From the NCBI RefSeq assembly GCF_007994135.1, contig NZ_VLKF01000001.1, positions 1,612,001-1,676,000 on the forward strand: a DNA stretch of 64,000 nt. Reading direction: 5' to 3'. The notes beneath the pieces were generated by a model. The model made no database searches and had not been told where the DNA came from. It saw nothing but the letters and a program-made list of their open reading frames with translations. The stretch is from Modestobacter roseus (GTDB lineage: Bacteria > Actinomycetota > Actinomycetes > Mycobacteriales > Geodermatophilaceae). Positions 16,096-27,214 of this stretch are shown one piece after another. Made by a program: the position numbers and the translations under genes. Each line of letters begins with the position of its first letter. Position 1 is the stretch's first letter.

Positions 16096-17742
16096 ATGGC
16101 AACTCGGCTCGCAACGGCGCGGACCTCCCGGCAGGCCTTCACCCCGGAGGCGACCACCGACCCGTGGTGGCGCTCGGCGGTGGTCTACCAGGTCTACCTG
16201 CGCTCCTTCGCCGACGGCAACGGCGACGGCATCGGTGACCTGGCCGGCCTGCGCGCCCGGCTGCCCTACCTGTCCTGGCTGGGCGTCGACGCGCTGTGGA
16301 TCAACCCGCACTACCCCTCCGGCGGTGCCGACGGCGGCTACGACATCAGCGACTACCGCGCCGTCGACCCCGACTACGGCGACGTCGCCGACCTGGAGGC
16401 GCTCGTCGCCGACGCCCGCGCCCTGGGCCTGCGGGTGGTGCTGGACGTCGTCCCCAACCACACCTCCGACCAGCACCCCTGGTTCCAGGCGGCGCTGGCC
16501 GACCCGGAGTCCCCGGAGGCCTCCCGCTACCACTTCGCCCCCGCCTCCGAGCAGCCGCCGAACAACTGGCAGTCGCTGTTCGGCGGGCCGGCGTGGTCGC
16601 GCACCCCGGACGGCCGCTGGTACCTGCACCTGTTCGCCCCCGAGCAGCCCGACCTGAACTGGCGCGACCCGGCGGTGGCCGCCGACTTCGAGCAGACCCT
16701 GCGCTTCTGGCTGGACCGGGGCGTCAGCGGCTTCCGGGTCGACGTCGCCTACGGCCTGTTCAAGGACGCCGGCCTGCGCGACAACCCCGGCGCCTACTCC
16801 CCCACCCTCTTCGGGCACGGGCCGGAGCAGGCGATGACCTGGAACCAGCCCGAGGTGCACGACGTGTGGCGGCGCTGGCGCTCGATCTGCGACGAGTACC
16901 CCGAGACCATGCTGGTCGGCGAGGTCTGCCTGGCCGACCTGGAGCAGGTGGCGCTGTACTCCCGCCCCGACGAGATGCACCAGTCCTTCTCCTTCCGGCT
17001 GCTGAAGTCGCCGTGGTCCACCGAGGCCTTCGCCGACGGCGTGCGCACCGCGCTGGACGCGTTCGGCGCGGTGGGCGCCCCGGTCTCCTGGGTGCTGGGC
17101 AACCACGACAAGGACCGGCAGGTCACCCGGTTCGGCGGCGGCGAGGTGGGCACCGCCCGCGCCCGGGCCGCGGCGCTGCTGATGCTGGCGCTGCCGGGCT
17201 CGGCCTACGTCTACGCCGGCGACGAGCTGGGGCTGCCGCAGGCCGTCGTCCCCGACGAGGCCAAGCAGGACCCGATCTTCCACCGCAGTGGCGGGGCCCG
17301 GGCCGGCCGGGACGGCTGCCGGGTGCCGATGCCGTGGAACGACACCGCCGGGGTCGGCTTCTCCGGTGAGGCACTGTCCGGCGAGCGTGCTGCCGAGCCG
17401 TGGCTGCCGGTGCCGGCGGACTGGGACCGGTTCGCCGTGTCCCGGCAGACCCGGGACGGCGGCTCGATGCTGACCCTCTACCGCCGGGCACTGGCGCTGC
17501 GCGACGCGCACCCGGCGCTCGGGTCGGGCGAGGCGACGGTGGACACCCGCGGGGACGTGCTCACCGTGCGCTGCACCGCCGCCGACGGCTCGGTGGTGCG
17601 GTGCGTGGTCAACATGGGCGCCGGCACGACGCTGGTGCGCACCCGGGGCACCGTGCTGCTGGCCTCGACCACCCGGGTCCGCCGCTCCGCGGGCAGCATC
17701 GCACTGCCCGCCGACAGCGCGGTCTGGCTCACCGAGGACTGA
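16096..17742 (+). CDS. GH13 alpha-glucosidase (alpha-amylase family)
   Basis: A 548-residue cytoplasmic glycoside hydrolase with a (beta/alpha)8 barrel. The conserved regions are DVVPNHTSDQH, GFRVDVAYGL (nucleophile Asp), LVGEVCL (acid/base Glu) and VLGNHDKDR (transition-state Asp). QPDLNW, the region V form seen in alpha-glucosidases, supports maltase or isomaltase activity rather than true amylase. A C-terminal beta domain fills the last 80 residues. There is no signal peptide. The 3 prime end overlaps the stop of the convergent heme oxygenase gene by 14 bases. The ribosome site before ATG 16096 is weak. Confidence 0.9.
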   Translation: MATRLATARTSRQAFTPEATTDPWWRSAVVYQVYLRSFADGNGDGIGDLAGLRARLPYLSWLGVDALWINPHYPSGGADGGYDISDYRAVDPDYGDVADLEALVADARALGLRVVLDVVPNHTSDQHPWFQAALADPESPEASRYHFAPASEQPPNNWQSLFGGPAWSRTPDGRWYLHLFAPEQPDLNWRDPAVAADFEQTLRFWLDRGVSGFRVDVAYGLFKDAGLRDNPGAYSPTLFGHGPEQAMTWNQPEVHDVWRRWRSICDEYPETMLVGEVCLADLEQVALYSRPDEMHQSFSFRLLKSPWSTEAFADGVRTALDAFGAVGAPVSWVLGNHDKDRQVTRFGGGEVGTARARAAALLMLALPGSAYVYAGDELGLPQAVVPDEAKQDPIFHRSGGARAGRDGCRVPMPWNDTAGVGFSGEALSGERAAEPWLPVPADWDRFAVSRQTRDGGSMLTLYRRALALRDAHPALGSGEATVDTRGDVLTVRCTAADGSVVRCVVNMGAGTTLVRTRGTVLLASTTRVRRSAGSIALPADSAVWLTED

Positions 17743-18415
17743 ACCCGGCCATCCAGCGGGTGCCGAGGTCGGCGAAGAGCGCGGCGTTGAGCCGGTAGCC
17801 CAGCCCGACCTCCTCGACCACCGCCTGCTGCTCCGCCGGGGACCAGGGGGCGGTGTCCAGGCTGGCCCGGTAGGCGTCCTTGAACGGCTTGACCCGGCCG
17901 ACGTCGTCGAACACGTAGAACCGCAGGCCGTCGAGCTCCAGCCCGTAGGCCCGGCCCACCAGCCGGCGGATCACCTGACCGCCGGAGAGGTCGCCCAGGT
18001 AGCGCAGGTAGTGGTGGGCCACCAGCGCCGTCGGGGAGTCGAAGGCGACGTCGCGCAGCCGCTGCACGTACCGGGCGGTGGCCGGCAGCGGCACCAGGTC
18101 GGCCCGCCAGCCGGGCCCCAGCAGGTACGCCAGGTCGGCCTCGAGGGCGGGCAGCCGCCGCAGGCCCGGGTGCAGGAAGGGGCGCACCTCGGCGACGTCG
18201 GCCTGGGCGGCGACCGCCTGCTCGAGCACGTCGTAGACCAGGTGCGTCTGGGCGAGCAGCCCGGCGTAGGCCGCGCGCGGCAGTCGGCCGTCCAGGAGCG
18301 CGCCCACGAACGCGGAGCCCTCCGCGGCGGTGTGGTCGGCCTGGGTCGCTGCCTTGAGGCGGGCGGCGAAGCCGGCGGGGACGGCCCGGTTGGTGGGGAC
18401 GGCGGCGGCGGTCAT
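17729..18415 (-). CDS. hmuO: Heme oxygenase (biliverdin-producing)
   Basis: A 228-residue HmuO/HO-1 family enzyme that opens heme to biliverdin, carbon monoxide and ferrous iron, releasing iron from imported heme. The proximal heme ligand is His28 in ATQADHTAAEGSAF, and the distal helix carries the flexible glycine motif GDLSGGQVIRR near residue 140. RYVQRLRD and PFKDAYRASLD are also family features. The start is ATG at 18415 with GGAGG upstream. It is the last gene of the heme locus, next to the membrane protein gene whose reading frame, if one base is restored, would end in an ATGA overlap with this start. Confidence 0.95.
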   Translation of the reverse strand: MTAAAVPTNRAVPAGFAARLKAATQADHTAAEGSAFVGALLDGRLPRAAYAGLLAQTHLVYDVLEQAVAAQADVAEVRPFLHPGLRRLPALEADLAYLLGPGWRADLVPLPATARYVQRLRDVAFDSPTALVAHHYLRYLGDLSGGQVIRRLVGRAYGLELDGLRFYVFDDVGRVKPFKDAYRASLDTAPWSPAEQQAVVEEVGLGYRLNAALFADLGTRWMAGFSPR

Positions 18416-19472
18416 CGGGGGGTTCCTCCGGTCGGCTGGAGCAGGTCGGGTGCGGGGGCGGGGTCACGGTGTGCGCCGGCTCCCGCCGCGCACGCTGCCG
18501 CCGGCGGAGCCACCACCACCCCAGGAGCAGGAGCAGCACGCCCAGCACCGCCACGCTGGTGGGGCCGACCGCGGTGCCGGACGACGCCGCGGTGACGGGG
18601 TCGGCGGGCACGTCGGAGGCGCCGACCGCCGCGGGCACGAGCGCCACCTCGGCGGTCAGCGCGCCCAGTGCCGGCACGTCGGGCACGGTGAGCTCCACCG
18701 GCACCGACGCGCCGGCGAGCAGCTCCGGTGTCCGGGCGGGTGCCGTGGTGTGGCTGCCCAGCCCGAACGGGCCGGTGAGTCGGACCACCTGGTCGGCCGC
18801 CACGCGGGTGTTGCCGGTGTTGGTCAGGGTGAAGCCGACGACGGCGCTGCCCGGGGCGAAGGGCACCAGCGAGGGCCGGAAGTCGACGGTGAGGTCGCTG
18901 ACCGCCATCCCGGCGGTGAGCTCACCGCTGACCAGGGCGTGCACCCGCACCCCGAGCCGGCGGTCGACCGAGACGCCGGTCGCGCCGGCGTCGGAGACCA
19001 GTGAGGTGACGATCGCCCCGGAGTGGTCACCGGCGGCCGCGTCGGCGGGGACGGTCAGCGTGAAGGGCACCTCCACGCGCTCGCCGGGGGCGAGCTCCAC
19101 TGCGGAGGTGGCCAGCTGCACCCAGGTGCCCAGGTCGGTGGAGGCCGTACCGGTGGGCAGCACGTCGAGTTCACCGGCGTCGGTGGTGAACCCGTCGGCG
19201 GCGTAGAGGCCCAGCGCCAGCGGGGTAGCCCCGAGGTTGGTGACCACGACGGCGTCGTCGACCACCGCACCGGGGTCGAGCACGAAGCCGTAGTTGGGGC
19301 GGGCTCCGTCGTCGGTGGCGCGGGGGGCGACCGACCACTGGACGGTCTCCGCGACCGCGGGCGGCGCGGCGGCCAGCAGGGCCGCCAGCGAGCCGGCCAG
19401 CAGCACGCATGCGGTCACCAGGCCCCGCAGCGGGGTGCGTCCGGGCGCGGACCGGTGGACGGGGACGGGCAT
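18412..19472 (-). CDS. DUF916 membrane protein, WxL-interacting-protein-like (apparent frameshift at 3 prime end)
   Basis: The coding part gives about 350 residues: signal peptide (1-41), a DUF916 domain (about 43-160, with NYGFVLDPGAVVDDAVVVTN and PFTLTVPADAAAGDHSGAI), a second Ig-like domain (about 170-282), a membrane helix (about 304-322) and a basic tail. This is the layout of WxL-interacting proteins, which bind peptidoglycan and WxL domains outside the cell. The frame has no stop of its own and stays open through hmuO to 17478. Adding one G to the six-G run at 18417-18422 would make it end at TGA 18414-18412, overlapping the hmuO start as ATGA; I use that end. GAGAGG precedes the ATG. 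It pairs logically with the WxL-like tail of the HtaA protein upstream. Confidence 0.72.
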
Positions 19473-19551
19473 CGGGGGCCTCTCGGTGGGAGGACGGGAC
19501 AGCGGCTGGGGAACGGGTGCTGCCGGGCATCGCGCCGGTACGGTGGACCAA

Positions 19552-19582
19552 CCCTCGGGGCCCCTCCCATGGGCCCCGAGGG
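19552..19582 (-). terminator. Terminator hairpin after htaA
   Basis: A perfect 12-bp stem, CCCTCGGGGCCC (19552-19563) and its complement (19571-19582), closes a 7-base loop. It lies 29 bases downstream of the HtaA stop on the minus strand and upstream of the DUF916 gene. The DUF916-hmuO pair therefore probably has its own promoter or depends on read-through. Confidence 0.7.
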
Positions 19583-19610
19583 CCGGTCCGCCCGACCGGC
19601 CGTCAGCAGG

Positions 19611-20795
19611 TCAGCTGAGGGCGGTGAGCGTCAGGGTCGCCGCGTAGGTCCCCGCGGCGGTGCCGGTGGGCAGCTCCAGGTCGAGGTCGGCGCCGAGGGT
19701 CGCCGTCCCGGGCTCGTGACCGGTGGGTGCCCCACCCAGGGTCGAGGTCTCCGCCAGCCCGCTGCCGGTGAGCCGGCCGGAGGGCACGACCTCCCCGGCG
19801 GTGGCCCCACCGCCGGCGGTCACCACCTCCGGCGTCCAGCCGAGGTACTTGCCCGGCAGGGTCGCCGAGCCGGCGGTGAAGTCGCTGACCTGGGCGCTGA
19901 TCGACCAGGCCGACCGGGTGCTCCGCGTGTCGGTCACGACCACCGGCTTGAGCTGACCGGCGGCGGCCAGGTGGTCGCCCTCGTCGGTGGCGGTGCCGAG
20001 GCTGACCACCGAGTCGTCCCCGCTGATCTCCCAGGAGAACGTGCCGGGCTCGGGCTCCACGGCGCCCTCGGCAACGACGACGGTGAGCTGCTGCTCGTTC
20101 TCCGCCGGGGTCCCCGGGTCGGGGTCGGTGCCCGGGTCCGGGTCGGTGCCGGGGTCCGGGTCGACCGGTGCGGCGTCGTCGGCGACGACGGTGAAGCTCA
20201 GCGGGTCCAGCGCCGTGCCGGCCGAGTAGAAATCGGCGAACGCCGGGGCCCCCGCCTCGGTCATCGTGGCCGGGACGCCGGTCCAGCTGTACCCGTCGGC
20301 GGTCGCCACCGGGCTGACCCCGCTCAGGTCCAGCGCGGCGAGCTCGACGTCCGGGTAGGACTCGATGGTGCCGCCGCTGAGGCTCTTGGAGTCGACGTCG
20401 GCCACGAGCACCCCGCTGGTGCCGTCGATGTGCACCTCCAGGCCGGCGATGGTCAGGGCGAGCTGCCCGGAGTGACCGGTGAAGTGCACCGACCCGGCGA
20501 ACGCGGCGTCGACGGTGGTGCCGTCGACCGTGCCGGTGCCCGACGGGAACTGGAACGTGCCGTCGCCCGCGGTGGTGGCACCGCCCGCGGCGGTGACCGA
20601 GCCGTGCGCGATCGGCCCGGCGATGTAGCTGCGGAAGGACTGCTTGACGCCCCAGCTGAGCGTGCCGTCGGAGACGGTCTCCGCGGCGGCGGCCGGACCG
20701 GCGGCCACCACGACGACTCCGGCGCCGAGCGCGGCGGCACCGGCCACGCCGACGGCGCGGGTCACCCACCGGGGGCGGGTGGAGGTGTGGTTCAT
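19611..20795 (-). CDS. htaA: Secreted heme-binding HtaA-domain protein with C-terminal WxL-like domain
   Basis: A 394-residue exported protein. The signal peptide ends near AAAA at 35-38. Residues about 42-205 form an HtaA domain: WGVKQSFRSYI holds Ser53 and Tyr57, and FTGHSGQL holds His108, matching the Tyr/His pair that binds heme in corynebacterial HtaA. An acidic PDPGTD linker (211-230) follows. Residues about 235-394 resemble a WxL wall-binding domain, with SWEI (255) and AWSI (297), VSDFTAGSATLPG, and an ending AGTYAATLTLTALS. There is no C-terminal membrane helix, unlike corynebacterial HtaA, so retention may rely on the DUF916 protein. ATG 20795 has AGGAG five bases upstream; a DtxR-like box lies 35 bases before it. 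Confidence 0.85.
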   Translation of the reverse strand: MNHTSTRPRWVTRAVGVAGAAALGAGVVVVAAGPAAAAETVSDGTLSWGVKQSFRSYIAGPIAHGSVTAAGGATTAGDGTFQFPSGTGTVDGTTVDAAFAGSVHFTGHSGQLALTIAGLEVHIDGTSGVLVADVDSKSLSGGTIESYPDVELAALDLSGVSPVATADGYSWTGVPATMTEAGAPAFADFYSAGTALDPLSFTVVADDAAPVDPDPGTDPDPGTDPDPGTPAENEQQLTVVVAEGAVEPEPGTFSWEISGDDSVVSLGTATDEGDHLAAAGQLKPVVVTDTRSTRSAWSISAQVSDFTAGSATLPGKYLGWTPEVVTAGGGATAGEVVPSGRLTGSGLAETSTLGGAPTGHEPGTATLGADLDLELPTGTAAGTYAATLTLTALS

Positions 20796-20830
20796 GGTTC
20801 TCCTCGCGTGGGATGCGCCTGACCTGTTGG

Positions 20831-20849
20831 TTAGGCAAGCCTCACCTAA
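20831..20849 (-). promoter_or_regulatory. DtxR/IdeR-like iron box upstream of htaA
   Basis: TTAGGCAAGCCTCACCTAA agrees with the 19-base DtxR/IdeR consensus (TTAGGTTAGSCTAACCTAA) at 16 positions, including both TTAGG and CCTAA ends. It lies 36-54 bases upstream of the htaA start. Iron-loaded DtxR or IdeR should repress htaA here. The regulator gene itself is not in the window. Confidence 0.85.
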
Positions 20850-20875: not shown

Positions 20876-22951
20876 TCAGTTCTCACGCACGGCGACGGAC
20901 TCGGCCGACCGGCCGGCGGAGCGCCGCCACACCACCAGGGCGGCCAGCAGCAGGCCCGCGCCACCGCCCCACCAGCCGAGGTCGCGCGGACCCGGTACCG
21001 GCGCGAACAGCCCGGCCAGGTCGGTGCCCGCACCACCGGCCACGTGCACCGTCCGGGTGCCGGCGAGCAGTTGCTGCTCCCCCACCACGCCCGGCGCCAT
21101 GGCACCCGACCCCACGGTGGCGGGGGCCGGGGCGGCCCGCGGCGTGGCCGGGCGCGCCGCAGCCGCCGGCGGAGCCGGCGGAGGTGCGCTGCGCCGGGTC
21201 GGCGGCGTCGCCACGACGTTCTCGGGTGCCGCAGCCGGAGTGGTGACCGGGGCGGCCGCGGGCGGGGTGACGGGCGCGGCGGCGGAGAAGCTCACCGTCA
21301 GCGGCAGCGGCACCTTGAACCGGTCGGTGGGGCCGCCGCTGGAGTACCAGTAGGGGGCCTGCCCGACCCGCACCTGGAAGTCGACGAAGCTCGCCGGGAA
21401 GGCCCCCCACGCCGCCCCCTCCCGCCGCTGCGGGGTGACGGTGCTGCCGGCCGGCGGGTCGTAGCGCACCCCGGCGTATCGCGGCGTGACGGTGAAGCCC
21501 GCGCCGTCCAGGGGCACCGCACCCAGCTCGGCGAGCACCACCTCGGTCTCCGGCAGCGGCTCCCAGCGGGTCGGGTCGGCCTGGTCGGCGCCGAACCCGC
21601 CCAGCGTGGCGGTCACCTGCCCGACCCCGCCGGAGACGGTGAGCACCGGGTCGGCGACGGTGAAGAAGGTCAGCCCGCTGTAGAAGGCGACGGTGAACTC
21701 GCCGTCCCAGCGGATCGTGGCGGTGCCGGCCGCCGGGTCGACCGTGCCGGAGCCGCCGTCGATCACCACCTGGTGGTCGCTGAACAGCCCGGCGGTGGCC
21801 GACGTCAGCGGCTGACCGGTGGGCGTGGTGGTGAGCCCGGCGTAGGTGGCCGGTGCGTAGGAGCCGTCCGGTTGTCGCTTCTCGATCCGGACCCGGCCAC
21901 TGCTGGCCGCCCACCGGTCCGCGCCGATCTGCTGGTCCGGGCCGGTGTCGGGCACCCGGCCGGCCGACAGCAGGTTCACCGTGCCGGGTGCGAACGCGGC
22001 GTTGCCGGTCTCCTGGTTGACGCCCCAGCGGAACTGCGCGTCGCTCACGACGGTGCCCGTGGCCGGTGGCGCCGGGGCGGGCGCCGGGGCGGGCGTCGGG
22101 GTGGGCGTCGGGGTGGGCGTCGGGGTGGGCACAGGCCAGGTGACGCGCAGCGGCAGGGGCAGCTTCGCCGGGTCGGTCGCCGCCCCGGTGGAGTACCAGG
22201 CGCCCGCCTGGCCGATCTCCCCGGCGACGGCGACGAGCGACGCAGGGAAGGAGCCCCAGCAGTCACCGGTCCGGTCCTGCGGTGGCGCGCCGTCGGGAGC
22301 GTCGTGCGCCACCTCCGGGTACGCCGGGGCCACCTCCAGACCCGTGTCGGTCAGCTCGGCGCCGGGCAGGTCGGCGAGGGTCACCTCCCGCGGGTCGGCG
22401 GTCACACCGCCGCCGGAGCCGTGCACCGTGGCGGTCAGCCGGCCGGCACCGTCCTCGACGACCATCCGGGGATCGGTGAGCGTGAGCAGCGCGGCGCCCC
22501 CCGCGGAGACGAGGGTGACGCTGCCCCGCCAGGAGAGCTCCGCGCTGCCGCCGGCCGGGTCGACGGTGCCGGCGCCGCCGGTGAGCACCACGACGAGCCC
22601 GGACGAGCCGTCAGCCGGGTCGGTGAGCGGGACGCCGCCGGGGGTCGCACGCAGCCCGGCCCAGGTGGCGGGTGCGGTCGAGCCGTCGGGTTGCTGCTGC
22701 TCGATCCGGACCGCGCCGTCGGCGGCCGCCCACTCCTCCTCGGCGAACACGCCGTCGTCGCCCGCGGTCACCTCCCCGGCGGAGACCAGGTCGACAGCCC
22801 CGGGCACCTCGGCCGCGTTCGACACCTCCGCCGAGATGCCCCAGCGGAGCTCGACGCCGGACACCGGTGCCCCCGTCGCGGCGGCGGTGCCCGGGCTCAG
22901 CACCAGAGCGGCGAGGGTGAGGCCGGCGGTGAGCGTGGCGGCCCGCTTCAC
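20876..22951 (-). CDS. Membrane-anchored surface protein with two divergent HtaA-like domains
   Basis: A 691-residue exported protein: signal peptide 1-26, two homologous regions (about 33-270 and 305-555), a PT/PA linker between them (about 272-298), a Pro/Ala-rich stalk (about 555-625), and a C-terminal membrane helix with a charged tail. Each repeat opens with [LF]RWGIxxE or FRWGVNQE and has an HtaA-like beta pattern (GTATIRWDGEFTVAFY, TVADPVLTV). However, the Tyr and His heme ligands of canonical HtaA are not evident at the matching places, so heme binding may use other residues or be lost. ATG 22951 overlaps the upstream surface-protein stop by four bases, making this the last gene of the hmuTUV transcript. 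Confidence 0.78.
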   Translation of the reverse strand: MKRAATLTAGLTLAALVLSPGTAAATGAPVSGVELRWGISAEVSNAAEVPGAVDLVSAGEVTAGDDGVFAEEEWAAADGAVRIEQQQPDGSTAPATWAGLRATPGGVPLTDPADGSSGLVVVLTGGAGTVDPAGGSAELSWRGSVTLVSAGGAALLTLTDPRMVVEDGAGRLTATVHGSGGGVTADPREVTLADLPGAELTDTGLEVAPAYPEVAHDAPDGAPPQDRTGDCWGSFPASLVAVAGEIGQAGAWYSTGAATDPAKLPLPLRVTWPVPTPTPTPTPTPTPAPAPAPAPPATGTVVSDAQFRWGVNQETGNAAFAPGTVNLLSAGRVPDTGPDQQIGADRWAASSGRVRIEKRQPDGSYAPATYAGLTTTPTGQPLTSATAGLFSDHQVVIDGGSGTVDPAAGTATIRWDGEFTVAFYSGLTFFTVADPVLTVSGGVGQVTATLGGFGADQADPTRWEPLPETEVVLAELGAVPLDGAGFTVTPRYAGVRYDPPAGSTVTPQRREGAAWGAFPASFVDFQVRVGQAPYWYSSGGPTDRFKVPLPLTVSFSAAAPVTPPAAAPVTTPAAAPENVVATPPTRRSAPPPAPPAAAARPATPRAAPAPATVGSGAMAPGVVGEQQLLAGTRTVHVAGGAGTDLAGLFAPVPGPRDLGWWGGGAGLLLAALVVWRRSAGRSAESVAVREN
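22091..22126. repeat. Tandem 12-bp repeat coding a PT linker
   Basis: Three perfect copies of GGGCGTCGGGGT (plus strand) lie inside the two-domain surface protein gene. They are preceded by related GCCGGGGCGG units. On the coding strand they give a PTPT run followed by PAPA, a stiff linker between the two HtaA-like regions. Copy number could vary by slippage. Confidence 0.85.
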
Positions 22952-24099
22952 CGGCCGCCCACCACGGTGACGGCGCGCCGGGCACGTCGGCGGGTCACCG
23001 CCGCGGTGAGCACCACGAAGAACACCAGGGCGGCGAGGAAGAAGAAGGCCAGCGCCGCCGGGGCGGGCTGCGTCGGTGTGCTGTCGGCGACCTCGGCGAC
23101 GGACAACGCCCCGGCGTCGGACTGCACGGAGAAGGTGACGGTGGGCAGCCCGCCGGTGGTGGTCCCGGTCAGCCGGAGCTCGTGGTTGCCGCCGGGCACC
23201 GTCTCCGGCAGCTCGAGCAGGCCCGCGACGGTGCCCTGGGCGCTGACCGGCAGCGGGCCGACCGAGGCCAGGCCGTCGTCGAGCGTCGCGAGCACCTGCT
23301 CACCGGCGACCAGACCGGTCGCGGTGAAGCTGAGCACCCGCCCGGCGACGGCGGTGGCCGGGTCGATGGTCACCGCCGGCGGACCGCTCGGCGGGGGCGG
23401 TGCGGTGCCGGGTGCCGGAGCGGCGGGGGCCGGGGCTGCGCTGGCCGGCGCATCGGCCCCCGGACCGGCGCCGTCCCCACCGCCCCCGCCGGCGGACGGA
23501 GCGCCCGCCGGCGCCTCGGTGTACACGTCGGTGAAGGTCACCGGGGTGAACGTCTCGTTGGCCGCGTTCACCACGCCGTGCGCACCGATGGTGAGCACCC
23601 CGCAGGTCACCTGGCGGCAGTCGACGGAGACGGTCTGCCCGTCCCGGTCCAGCGAGGAGAAGGTGGGGCCGGGCACGTACATCTGCACCGACCAGCTGCC
23701 GTCGGCGGCGAGCACCCCTCCGTTCGCCTCCTCGGCGGTCGCGCTGCCGGGGAAGGCGACGAACCGCTGGAAGCCGGCGTTGTCGGCGGACTCGCTGTCG
23801 GGCACGTACCGGTAGTCGGCGCCGGTCTGCCCACCTTGGCTGGGCCGCCAGCCGCCCCCGGGGTCGTCGACCCAGCCGAAGAGCACGTAGATGCCGCCGA
23901 ATCCACCGGCCACCGACTGGAAGCCGGTGCCGCGCACGGTGATCGGCGTGGAGTAGGTGGTGTCGGCGGCCGCCGCGCCGAACTCGTTGGCCACGGTGAC
24001 CCGTGCCGCGGCCTGGGCCGGCACAGCGAGGGCGACCGCACCGACGAGCAGCAGGCACGCGGCGAGCAGGGCCGGCAGCAGCCGACGGCGAACGGTCAC
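22948..24099 (-). CDS. Heme-locus cell-surface protein of unassigned family
   Basis: A 383-residue exported membrane protein. The signal peptide (about 1-33) ends PAQAAA. The mature N-terminal domain (about 35-185) includes VTVRGTGFQS, YVLFGWVDDPGGGW and CGVLTIGAHGVVNAANETFTPV, with a Cys pair (CRQVTC) likely to form a disulfide. A Gly/Ala/Pro linker leads to a second beta domain (about 235-335), then a membrane helix (about 344-366, ALAFFFLAALVFFVVL) and an Arg-rich cytoplasmic tail. The fold resembles Ig-like or neocarzinostatin-type domains, but I cannot name a family. The GTG start overlaps the hmuV stop (GTGA) and the stop overlaps the next gene, so it is made with the heme ABC transporter and may pass heme to it. 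Confidence 0.75.
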   Translation of the reverse strand: MTVRRRLLPALLAACLLLVGAVALAVPAQAAARVTVANEFGAAAADTTYSTPITVRGTGFQSVAGGFGGIYVLFGWVDDPGGGWRPSQGGQTGADYRYVPDSESADNAGFQRFVAFPGSATAEEANGGVLAADGSWSVQMYVPGPTFSSLDRDGQTVSVDCRQVTCGVLTIGAHGVVNAANETFTPVTFTDVYTEAPAGAPSAGGGGGDGAGPGADAPASAAPAPAAPAPGTAPPPPSGPPAVTIDPATAVAGRVLSFTATGLVAGEQVLATLDDGLASVGPLPVSAQGTVAGLLELPETVPGGNHELRLTGTTTGGLPTVTFSVQSDAGALSVAEVADSTPTQPAPAALAFFFLAALVFFVVLTAAVTRRRARRAVTVVGGR

Positions 24100-24899
24100 G
24101 AGGAGACCTCCAGGAGAGCGGCGGTGCGCCGGGGCAGCACGAGCGGCGCCCCGGTCACCGGGTGCGGGAGGACGTCGACCGGGTGCCGGTAGACGTCGGA
24201 GAGCAGCGGGCCGGTGAGCACGTGCGCCGGGGGGCCCAGCGCCCGGAGCCGGCCCTCGGCCAGCACCGCGACGACGTCGGCGTGCGCGGCGGCGAGGGTG
24301 AGGTCGTGCAGCACCGCGACGACGGCGCCACCGGCCCGGGCGACCGCCCGCGCCGAGTCGAGCAGCCGTTCCTGGTGGTGGATGTCGAGCGCCGCGGTGG
24401 GCTCGTCGAGCAGCAGCACCGGCACGTCCTGGGCGAGCACGCGGGCGAAGGCGGTCCGGGCCCGCTCCCCGCCGGAGAGCGTCGGGTGCAGCCGGTCGAC
24501 CAGCGTGGCGACGTCGGCCTCGGCCAGCGCGGCGTCGACCAGCCGCTCGTCGTCGGCGGCACGGTCGGTGCGCCGCCACGGGGTGCGCCCCATCTCGACG
24601 ACCTGGCGCACCCGGAAGGAGAAGGCGACCCGCTGCTCCTGCAGCAGCACCGCCCGCGCCCGGGCCAGCTGCCCCGGCGGCTCGCCGGCCAGGTCCCGCC
24701 CGGCCAGCCGGACCACCCCACCGGTCGGCGACCGGTCCCCGGCGAGCACCCCGAGCAGCGTCGACTTGCCCGCGCCGTTGGGGCCGACCAGTGCCACCAG
24801 CTCACCGGCGTGCACCGGCAAGCTCACGTCGTCCAGCAGCCGCCGCCCGCCGACGTCGACGGTGACGCCGACGGCGGTCAGGGCGGGGACGGCGGTCAC
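24096..24899 (-). CDS. hmuV: Heme ABC transporter ATP-binding protein
   Basis: A 267-residue ATPase of the FecCD/BtuCD importer class. Walker A is GPNGAGKST, the Q loop follows in LLQEQRVAFSF, the signature is LSGGERARTAFARVLAQ, Walker B is VLLLDEPTAALD, and the switch His lies in VAVLHDLTLA. The length and the HPVTGAPLVLP tail match HmuV. The GTG start at 24899 overlaps the hmuU stop by four bases, and its own stop overlaps the next surface-protein start in the same way. Confidence 0.93.
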   Translation of the reverse strand: MTAVPALTAVGVTVDVGGRRLLDDVSLPVHAGELVALVGPNGAGKSTLLGVLAGDRSPTGGVVRLAGRDLAGEPPGQLARARAVLLQEQRVAFSFRVRQVVEMGRTPWRRTDRAADDERLVDAALAEADVATLVDRLHPTLSGGERARTAFARVLAQDVPVLLLDEPTAALDIHHQERLLDSARAVARAGGAVVAVLHDLTLAAAHADVVAVLAEGRLRALGPPAHVLTGPLLSDVYRHPVDVLPHPVTGAPLVLPRRTAALLEVSS

Positions 24900-25990
24900 G
24901 CCCAGCCACCGGCGGTGCGGCGGGAGCGGCGGAGCAGCCAGAAGAAGACCGGGCTGCCGACCAGGGCGGTGAGCATGCCGATGGGGAGGTCGGCGTAGGC
25001 GACGGCGTTGCGGGCGACCAGGTCGGCGGCGAGCAGCAGCACCGCACCGCCCAGGGCGCTGGCCGGCACGAGCACCCGGTGCCCGGGGCCGCAGACCATC
25101 CGCACCAGGTGCGGCACGACCAGGCCGACGAAGGCGATGATCCCGCAGAAGGCCACCGCGGCCGCGGCCAGGAGGGCGACCAGCACGATGCAGACCAACC
25201 GCAGCCGCTCGACGTCGACGCCCACGTGCCGGGCCGCCCGGTCGCCCAGTGCCAGCAGGTCCAGCCGGCGGGCGACCAGGAACGCCCCGGCCAGGCCGAC
25301 CGCCACCAGCGGGGCGACCACGCCCACGTACTGCCAGCGGCTGCCGTTGAGGCTGCCCAGCTGCCAGAAGACGATCTGCTCCCGCGCCTGGGTGTCGCCC
25401 AGGAAGGTCAGGAAGCCGAGCCCCGCGCCGGTGAAAGCGTTCAGCGCCACCCCGGTGAGCACCAGGGTGACCACCTCGGTGCGGCCGTCGGCGCGGGCGA
25501 GGACGTAGACCAGCAGGGTGGCGACCAGCCCGCCGACGAAGGCCGCGGCCGCCAGCGTCCAGGGGCCCAGCACGGTGATGCCGAAGACGATCGTGGCGCT
25601 CGCCGCCAGCGCCGCACCCGAGGAGACACCGACCACCCCGGGTTCGGCCAGCGGGTTGCCGAACACCCCCTGCATGACCGCGCCGGCCGTGGCCAGCGCG
25701 GCACCGACCAGCACCGCCATGGCGACCCGGGGGAAGCGGATGCTCCACAGCGCGGCGTCGCCGTTCGGGTGGCTGGGCAGCGGCCCGACGTCCAACCCGA
25801 TCCGGTGCAGCACCGACCCGACGACCTCGGCCGGCGGCACCGACAGCTGACCGATCCCGGCGGCGAGCACGGCGAGCACGAGCAGCGCCGTCCCGAGGAC
25901 GGCGAAGGTGAGCGCCGCCCGGCGGCGGTGCCGGACCGGACGGGCCGCGGGCAGGCCGGCCACGGCGGGAGCCGGCGGCGCGACCGTCAC
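24896..25990 (-). CDS. hmuU: Heme ABC transporter permease (FecCD family)
   Basis: A 364-residue permease with about ten membrane helices. Family signatures are visible: RFPRVAMAVLVGAALATAGAVMQGVFGNPLAEPGVVGVSSGAALAA in segments, WQLGSLNGSRW, GCGIIAFVGL-like FCGIIAFVGLVVPHLVRM, and the C-terminal DLPIGMLTALVGSPVFFWLL. These cover the coupling helix and the substrate path of FecCD importers. The GTG at 25990 overlaps the hmuT stop (GTGA), and the stop overlaps hmuV. No internal frameshift is seen. Confidence 0.93.
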   Translation of the reverse strand: MTVAPPAPAVAGLPAARPVRHRRRAALTFAVLGTALLVLAVLAAGIGQLSVPPAEVVGSVLHRIGLDVGPLPSHPNGDAALWSIRFPRVAMAVLVGAALATAGAVMQGVFGNPLAEPGVVGVSSGAALAASATIVFGITVLGPWTLAAAAFVGGLVATLLVYVLARADGRTEVVTLVLTGVALNAFTGAGLGFLTFLGDTQAREQIVFWQLGSLNGSRWQYVGVVAPLVAVGLAGAFLVARRLDLLALGDRAARHVGVDVERLRLVCIVLVALLAAAAVAFCGIIAFVGLVVPHLVRMVCGPGHRVLVPASALGGAVLLLAADLVARNAVAYADLPIGMLTALVGSPVFFWLLRRSRRTAGGWA

Positions 25991-27117
25991 CGCGGGACCT
26001 CCGTGGGCACGGTGGCGCCCGGGGCGTAGACCGCGGTGGCCAGGGCGTCGAGGACGTCGGCGGTCCGCGGGCCGAAACCCAGCACCTGGCTGTCGGCCAT
26101 GTCGACGATCCGGTGGCGCTGGCCCGCCGGGGTCTGCGCGAGCGCCGGCACCTGCTCCAGCAGCCCCTCGACGCCGCCGACCGAGCGCAGCCCCTCGGTC
26201 ATCACCAGGACCAGGTCCGGCTGGGCGGCGACCAGGCCTTCGTCGGTGAGCGGCTTCATCCCCGACCAGCCGATCTCGCCGGCGACGTCCCGGCCGCTCA
26301 GCGCGGTGATCAGCGAGTCCGCACCCGAGTCGCGGCCGAACATGTAGTAGACCCCGGCCTGCCCGCGCAGGTAGAGGAAGAGCATCCGCAGCCGGCGCTC
26401 CGGTTCCTGTGGCGCCACCGCGGCGATCTCGGCGACCTTGGCGGTGATCTCCGCCGCGGTCGCCTCGGCCAGCTGCTCCCCGGCACCGGGGACGCCCAGC
26501 GCCGCGGCGACCTGGCCGATCAGCGTGCCGACGCCGTCGACGGTGCGGTGGGAGTCGACGACGACCACCGGGATGCCGGCGTCGCGGACCTGGAGGACCA
26601 CGTCCCAGGGCCCGAGCGTGGTGTCGGTGATGAGCACCGTCGGCGCCAGCTCGAGCACGGCCTCCCCGTTGAGCGTGTGCCCACCCTGCGTGACCAGCGG
26701 CAGTTCGTCGCTGCCCGGGAACGACGAGGAGGTGTCCCGCCCCACCAGGCGCTCCCCGAGGCCGAGGTCGTAGGTGATCTGGGAGAGGGTGCCGTAGAGG
26801 TCCAGGGCGAGCACCCGGCTCACGTCGGTGACGGTCACCTCGGTGCCCTGGACGTCGGTGAGGGTGACCGGCAGCTGCGGTTCGGCGGCGGGCAGCGGGT
26901 CGCCGTCCGGCGCGCCGAGCACCGCCGTCGAGGGGCCCACGTAGCTCGCCGGGTCGGCGAGCGGGGTGCTGTCGGCGAGCCGCACGACCGGGGCGTCGGA
27001 CGCTCCCCCGCCGTCGGGCTGCGCGCCGGCGGCGCAGCCGGCCAGCAGCAGGCCGGTCAGGGCAACCGCGACGACGGCCCCGGCACGGGGGGTCCGGAGT
27101 GGGACGGGGACGGGCAC
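25987..27117 (-). CDS. hmuT: Heme ABC transporter substrate-binding lipoprotein
   Basis: A 376-residue lipoprotein of the PeriBP_2 class. The signal ends in the lipobox LLLAGC, so Cys28 should carry lipid. I chose GTG at 27117 because GGAGG is four bases upstream and it gives a normal signal length. The frame is open to 27204 but that would add 29 unlikely residues and crowd the iron box. Mature features include DVSRVLALDLYGTLSQITYDLGLGERLVG, ELAPTVLITDTTLGPWD and a long helix before the second lobe (MFLYLRGQAGVYYMFG). Conserved Tyr and His residues that hold heme in HmuT are plausible in those segments. It is the first gene of a five-gene overlapping operon. Confidence 0.92.
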   Translation of the reverse strand: MPVPVPLRTPRAGAVVAVALTGLLLAGCAAGAQPDGGGASDAPVVRLADSTPLADPASYVGPSTAVLGAPDGDPLPAAEPQLPVTLTDVQGTEVTVTDVSRVLALDLYGTLSQITYDLGLGERLVGRDTSSSFPGSDELPLVTQGGHTLNGEAVLELAPTVLITDTTLGPWDVVLQVRDAGIPVVVVDSHRTVDGVGTLIGQVAAALGVPGAGEQLAEATAAEITAKVAEIAAVAPQEPERRLRMLFLYLRGQAGVYYMFGRDSGADSLITALSGRDVAGEIGWSGMKPLTDEGLVAAQPDLVLVMTEGLRSVGGVEGLLEQVPALAQTPAGQRHRIVDMADSQVLGFGPRTADVLDALATAVYAPGATVPTEVPR

Positions 27118-27214
27118 CGGGCCTCCGCGGGGCACTGGCCGCGCCGCGGCCGGGGACCGGTGCCGCACGGGCACCGGGGCGATGATGATCACCACCGAAC
27201 GCACCGTACACAGG

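Follow-up and report, generated by a model that had tools for sequence, protein, structure and literature searches.

The stretch of Modestobacter roseus DNA analysed here (64,000 nucleotides, the window; contig NZ_VLKF01000001.1, positions 1,612,001–1,676,000) carries on its minus strand an HtaA-type heme protein gene whose product ends in a domain resembling WxL, followed by a gene of the WxL-interacting protein (WxLIP) type and by hmuO. The first gene, denoted htaA-WxL (19611–20795), codes for 394 amino acids comprising a signal peptide, an HtaA heme-binding domain (residues 43–202; 20190–20669), a linker and a C-terminal WxL-like domain (residues 230–394; 19614–20108). The linker is evident in the sequence as three repeats of DPDPGT (residues 212–229; 20109–20162), and the same linker is also present in the nearest relative, genome G022. 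The WxLIP-type gene (18460–19472, 337 amino acids as translated) codes for a signal peptide, a DUF916/PGBD-like domain (residues 61–154; 19011–19292), a putative second immunoglobulin (Ig)-like domain and a C-terminal helix, the latter seen by hydropathy as a transmembrane (TM)-like stretch at residues 299–317 (18522–18578). The third gene, hmuO (17729–18415), codes for a heme oxygenase (Pfam PF01126 Heme_oxygenase, 3.8e-52), as had been proposed for the gene after the DUF916-type one. A DtxR/IdeR-like iron box, TTAGGTGAGGCTTGCCTAA, is located 36–54 bases upstream of the htaA-WxL start (20831–20849). All of these features are on the minus strand.

The HtaA domain matches the Pfam HtaA family (PF04213) with 178.2 bits (cut-off 24; 2.5e-52) and is related to solved heme-binding CR domains such as 6jsa (2.5e-27). 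Four residues, Ser53, Tyr57, His108 and Tyr190, are assigned to the heme site by spacing and profile. In HtaA and ChtA of Corynebacterium diphtheriae, a Tyr is the iron ligand with a His (or Tyr) as its support, while Ser and Tyr hold a propionate (PMC12494546). The axial Tyr is conserved in all 14 domains that have a letter at that position among the 16 aligned. A canonical heme site of Tyr57 and His108 and the lack of a C-terminal membrane helix had both been read from the DNA earlier, and both stand, as the two residues lie where they were placed and the only hydrophobic stretch called by hydropathy is the signal peptide (residues 14–32). The 30 best HtaA loci contain 45 HtaA reading frames, of which 24 have a complete C-terminal end. 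Twenty-two of these end in a TM stretch, the remaining two being HtaA-WxL itself and a 69-residue fragment, and the WxL-like tail therefore occupies the place of the usual membrane helix. The WxLIP profile matches one of the 30 loci, namely that of HtaA-WxL, which is a weak control given the small size of the loci (about 3.4 kb each). HtaA relatives that have the usual membrane anchor and lack a DUF916 neighbour had been named as counter-evidence; such proteins do exist but are separate cases and do not refute the display.

The last 165 residues alone match Pfam WxL (PF13731) with 20.5 bits (E 5.1e-4; residues 51–107 of the fragment), and the DPDPGT linker does not account for the score, because a fragment without the linker also reaches 20.5 bits. 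Scanned one by one, all 18 aligned tails match Pfam WxL at E <= 0.1 (best 4.4e-8), while no other Pfam family matches more than three of them, and some relatives in the same tail profile exceed the WxL cut-off (L013, 32.6 bits; L014, 32.2 bits). Among 394 genomes of the class, Pfam WxL matches 27, of which 17 are above the cut-off, and among 14 control genomes it matches only Lactococcus lactis. The profile built from the 18 tails, with up to nine candidates scored per genome, finds a WxL-like domain in at least 94 of the 394 genomes, and the tail is thus not rare in Actinobacteria. Judged by these profile matches, the class commonly carries WxL-like domains, and what is special here is their use on a heme receptor. 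The view that WxL is mainly a Firmicute domain agrees with print, where more than 91% of 938 WxL sequences come from Firmicutes (PMC9772566), but not with our profile count.

Family alignments place the first WxL motif at W297-S-I299. Across 138 relatives this Trp is present in 133, strict W-x-L in 74 and W-x-[LIV] in 121. The W-x-I at Trp255, also taken for a WxL motif in the sequence-only reading, lies outside both motifs in these alignments and was rejected. The distal motif of Firmicutes, YXXX(L/I/V)TWXLXXXP (PMC5817068), corresponds to Y384-AATLT-L with the second Trp replaced by Leu, and its Tyr and Thr are conserved in 135 and 136 of the 138 relatives, respectively. The ending AGTYAATLTLT, proposed to be that of WxL proteins, is hence so in its Tyr and Thr but not at its distal Trp. 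The domain also has the C-terminal position on a secreted protein. Taken together, profile and position relate the tail to WxL, whereas its motifs mark it as a consistent variant, and it is here called WxL-like for this reason; the earlier observation that the last 160 residues look like a WxL domain stands with Trp297 but not with Trp255.

The structure of the tail is predicted with confidence and is mostly beta (mean predicted local distance difference test score, pLDDT, 91.2; predicted template modelling score, pTM, 0.80). Its top PDB match is the GH123 enzyme 5l7u (6.1e-5), with weaker matches to the Csu, Cfa and Fim chaperone-usher pilins (TM-score about 0.3–0.45). Sequence searches of the PDB with tail profiles returned no WxL chain, the best matches being PsaK (0.0023) and GH123 (0.013). 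A weak likeness of the WxL-like family to GH123 enzymes is therefore seen both in sequence profile (5l7v, 0.013) and in fold (5l7u). Comparison of the WxL-like and WxLIP profiles by hhalign detected no relationship (probability 0.7%).

The WxLIP protein matches WxLIP_PGBD, which is equivalent to DUF916, with 25.9 bits (E 1.1e-5). Its top Pfam score is for NPCBM_assoc (32.4 bits, cut-off 24.4), a general Ig-like match that is shared by six of ten aligned partners, this protein included. Nine of the ten partners match WxLIP_PGBD at E <= 0.1 (best 1.7e-9), and the ten-partner profile matches the solved Enterococcus faecium WxLIP chains 9i25_C (1.6e-7) and 9i1y_A (1.8e-7). In addition to the C-terminal stretch at residues 299–317, hydropathy returns a borderline one at 266–284, and the helix is also present in the structural model. 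A Pfam match to DUF3324 was found neither in this protein nor in any of the ten partners. The description of the neighbour as a DUF916 protein with a C-terminal helix is upheld for the helix and for the family of partners, while its own score stays just under the Pfam cut-off.

The WxL-like tail and the WxLIP were also folded as a single chain taken from the frame of this locus, with TGA read as Trp. The three best PDB matches of this chain are E. faecium WxLIP entries (E 2.9e-9 to 2.0e-8), and those to 9i25 and 9i1y (E 2.9e-9 and 3.3e-9) have TM-scores by target of 0.57 and 0.55; the structure match to the E. faecium WxLIP covers 273 columns. PapD-type chaperones are matched as well and rank under the WxLIP entries. 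Pilins and their chaperones work through strand exchange. Entry 9i25 bears the title 'WxLIP from Enterococcus faecium locus A bound to long WxL', and on the strength of this title the binding of WxL by WxLIP appears to be solved for Enterococcus. Hassan 2023 (PMC10599100) predicted completion of the WxL sandwich by a hairpin of the WxLIP. The putative hairpin in our chain, loop 96–111 of the WxLIP, has a pLDDT below 50.

Recurrence of the two genes was followed in 80 fetched regions, 79 around WxL-like places among those listed from the class and one around G022. A pair was counted when a WxL-like domain and a WxLIP lay on one strand within 3 kb. The pair is present in 74 of the 80 regions (missing from L114, L117, L163, L164, L166, at a contig end, and L168) and, when only regions from genomes that contributed nothing to the profiles are considered, in 55 of 59 (48 genomes). 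A peptide-pattern scan of 84,980 species yielded 32 confirmed named loci, 28 of them with the pair (missing from L189, L193, at a contig end, L204 and L207); four records are in both locus sets (L097/L197, L098/L190, L105/L192 and L119/L196). In the M. roseus genome itself (4.5 Mb), scoring of every candidate (94 for the WxL-like domain, 84 for the WxLIP) gives one place of each kind, and the two are side by side. The same gene pair thus occurs in other Actinobacteria. Within the family, three of 112 genomes match the tail of HtaA-WxL in particular, and one of these three matches is not credible; the match in G065 (L005) looks false and was rejected, as the frame that holds it resembles a ribokinase when read by eye. 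Viral contigs searched with the HtaA-WxL protein gave two pattern matches, none of which was confirmed.

Among 139 WxL-like reading frames, counted with duplicates, 20 have an HtaA-type domain fused to the tail. Fifteen of these (14 distinct) carry HtaA proper and five a domain like the second repeat of the protein encoded at 20876–22951 of the window. The fusions with HtaA proper span six families (f1, f3, f5, f15, f19 and f47) and are seen in Thermobifida fusca, T. cellulosilytica, Nocardiopsis ansamitocini, four Micromonospora, G022 and others. Genes like hmuT or hmuU are present in nine of the 15 HtaA-proper stretches (L115, L158, L161, L175, L194, L198, L200, L202 and L208). Matches to hmuV at many loci are merely ATP-binding cassette (ABC) ATPases and were not counted as heme evidence. 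The five fusions of the other HtaA-like type are in L191 and L193 (metagenome-assembled genomes of Bifidobacteriaceae), L148, L160 and L189, and four of these five stretches also contain an hmuU-like gene. On a tree of the tails, the fewest changes that explain the origins of HtaA are seven when HtaA is set against all other rows and four with labelled rows only, and this count is rough because eight identical tails, including the Nocardiopsis fusion and its HtaA-less neighbour, were merged beforehand.

In N. ansamitocini, two adjacent genes (L194, 9392–10435 and 10580–11770) have identical WxL-like tails, one with HtaA and the other with a sub-threshold neocarzinostatin-like domain. The tail is also found on choice-of-anchor M/TIGR03769-repeat proteins (L139, 3620–5479, and L143, 4009–5517; two of ten heads scanned), families that are named for 'anchored repeat' ABC transporters. 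The name 'choice-of-anchor' records a choice of anchors.

The iron box was scored by mismatches to a DtxR/IdeR consensus. The site TTAGGTGAGGCTTGCCTAA has three mismatches, against an expectation of zero from 100 shuffles, and no other site in the 64 kb has three or fewer. With up to four mismatches allowed, a box is located upstream in ten of the 14 distinct fusion loci, or 11 of 15 when this locus is added, and the nearest box in those ten is 167–252 bases before the HtaA domain. The other WxL-like loci have a box in only three of 72 (L133, L154 and L155), with six matches in 721,743 bases, and two of these three, L133 and L155, carry hmuT-like genes.

The remaining genes of the heme cluster are also on the minus strand. 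A second HtaA-type protein (20876–22951) contains two HtaA-like regions (PF04213, 2.5e-9, two stretches) and, by eye, a C-terminal hydrophobic stretch that hydropathy calling did not return. The product of the next gene (22951–24096) is secreted, has a C-terminal helix and no Pfam match, and recurs in heme loci (relatives in L175, L191, L193, L148, L158, L160, L161, L162, L155, L138 and L133). By eye it is like the middle part of the Micromonospora-type HtaA-WxL protein (L026), and a phmmer search with it gave no match to those Micromonospora-type fusion loci. Further genes are hmuU- and hmuV-like (about 24096–25987, named from their translations) and hmuT-like (25987–27204; PF01497, 2.5e-27).

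Domain identity, gene order, the iron-box-like site and the recurrence of both pair and fusion are observed. On this basis, HtaA-WxL is probably an iron-regulated heme receptor that is displayed without a sortase link, a lipid or a helix of its own, by docking on the WxLIP. At low iron, a DtxR/IdeR-type repressor would leave the box at 20831–20849 and allow expression of htaA-WxL, the WxLIP gene and hmuO, perhaps as a single three-gene transcript. The secreted HtaA-WxL would take hemin into its HtaA domain with Tyr57 as axial ligand and His108 as helper. Having no anchor of its own, it would dock through the C-terminal WxL-like domain on the neighbouring WxLIP, whose own C-terminal helix would fix the partner in the cell membrane. 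The held HtaA may then hand heme on to the adjacent HtaA-type protein and to HmuT, after which HmuUV would import it and HmuO would open its ring.

Several results weigh against this reading. Both single-protein scores are under their curated Pfam cut-offs, that of the tail against 25 and that of the WxLIP protein against 27.3. The distal Trp column in the 138 relatives is Leu in 105, Phe in 21, Ile in 8, Val in 4 and Trp in none. The WxLIP protein as a lone query finds no WxLIP in the PDB, and 9i25 is absent among the best 50 of 811 PDB matches of the tail model. The single chain has a pTM of 0.49 and a mean pLDDT of 75.8 and gives no confident interface between tail and partner, an outcome compatible both with docking and with its absence. 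The helper position is variable, as the column of His108 is His in seven, Pro in seven and Ser in two of the 16 aligned HtaA domains, the Pro cases having a His two residues further on. The full HtaA-WxL protein is patchy in distribution (two of 23 genus genomes), and hmuT or hmuU was not seen in six of the 15 fusion stretches, some of which end at contig ends. No iron box was found near four of the 14 distinct fusion loci (L138, L158, L161 and L162) or in two fusions of the other HtaA type that are among the 72 (L148 and L160). Finally, the WxLIP frame lacks a stop at the expected place before hmuO and stays open to 17478, running across hmuO in a frame different from that of hmuO. Near 18500–18420 the third-position guanine-cytosine content ceases to follow the WxLIP frame and follows that of hmuO, and the WxLIP gene of G022 has a normal end.

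A further point against docking is that Firmicute WxL was shown to bind the wall non-covalently, also when added externally (PMC5817068). It is conceivable, though unlikely, that the WxL-like tail of HtaA-WxL, a protein with no other anchor, likewise binds peptidoglycan directly, with the WxLIP just stabilising it or being a separate surface protein. The near-constant pairing outside the profile genomes and the WxLIP-WxL complex named in the 9i25 title say that the partner matters, and none of the 138 relatives retains the distal Trp of the wall-binding Firmicute domain.

The same lack of an anchor would also suit a released hemophore that cycles between medium and cell with the WxLIP as its docking receptor, all the more as PMC12494546 describes the ChtA and HtaA proteins of C. 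diphtheriae as hemophores that are secreted. We consider this slightly less probable than direct wall binding. The 119 of 139 WxL-like frames without a detectable HtaA-type domain make the tail look like a general anchor and not a hemophore trait, and choice-of-anchor M proteins account for two of the ten heads scanned. That the tail is an ordinary Ig-like spacer, its WxL score and its neighbour being coincidental, would fit the sub-cut-off scores and the general beta-sandwich matches of the fold, but is very improbable given that WxL matches 18 of 18 family members with no other family above three, that the pair holds in 55 of 59 regions and that the genome's one WxL-like and one WxLIP place adjoin.

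Display of the heme receptor through the WxLIP remains our preferred reading, and it may belong to a wider pattern, which we put forward tentatively and would rather doubt than assert. Actinobacteria may possess their own large WxL branch with a lost distal Trp, in which a membrane-held, chaperone-like WxLIP donates a strand to the pilin-like tails of interchangeable receptors. Such a system might serve nutrient uptake (heme, and perhaps other ABC-linked surface proteins) and not host adhesion, with the helix in the membrane of the bacterium itself, contrary to the proposal of host-cell entry. The two published accounts of the helix differ, Siezen 2006 placing that of the WxLIP (CscA) in the bacterial membrane (PMC1534035) and Hassan 2023 in the host membrane (PMC10599100). 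WxL-like/WxLIP pairs occur far beyond gut Firmicutes, for example in Thermobifida and Micromonospora, neither of which is known to be host-bound, and this bears on the question of which membrane holds the helix. The HtaA-WxL fusion is present in Thermobifida, Nocardiopsis and Micromonospora, genera that offer cultured non-pathogens.

WxL/WxLIP and HtaA heme uptake are both known; their combination on a heme receptor appears to be new. A search of openly accessible literature found no paper combining WxL and HtaA, a search for actinomycete WxL proteins found none, and titles and abstract openings retrieved for WxL with Actinobacteria or the Streptomyces cell wall named no such system. PMC12537917 mentions DUF916 among the genes that neighbour a family of metal-binding domains. 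The proposed display would give heme uptake in Actinobacteria a receptor mount other than a membrane helix, a lipid or a sortase link.

Among known systems, the arrangement resembles the Firmicute WxL/WxLIP clusters (CscA-B-C, DUF916-DUF3324) in having a C-terminal WxL on a large secreted protein and an adjoining WxLIP gene whose product has a signal peptide, a C-terminal helix and two Ig-like domains, the second being putative here (PMC10599100 and PMC1534035). It differs from them in the lost distal Trp, the HtaA head, the iron-box-like site and the heme operon, and also in number, because the definition of a Firmicute cluster requires two WxL genes whereas this genome has one. The choice-of-anchor M proteins (NF038134, TIGR03769 repeat) share the WxL-like tail, while their head differs and has no known heme function. 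To chaperone-usher pili, with their pilin and PapD-like chaperone, the likeness is a weak one of fold alone; no sequence match was seen and there is no usher here. With the corynebacterial HtaA/ChtA-HmuTUV-HmuO system the locus shares the HtaA (CR) domain, including its axial Tyr and its helper His, the hmu genes and the DtxR-like box. However, in contrast to corynebacterial-type heme uptake, where HtaA usually ends in a membrane helix, the protein here ends in a WxL-like domain and has a WxLIP partner.

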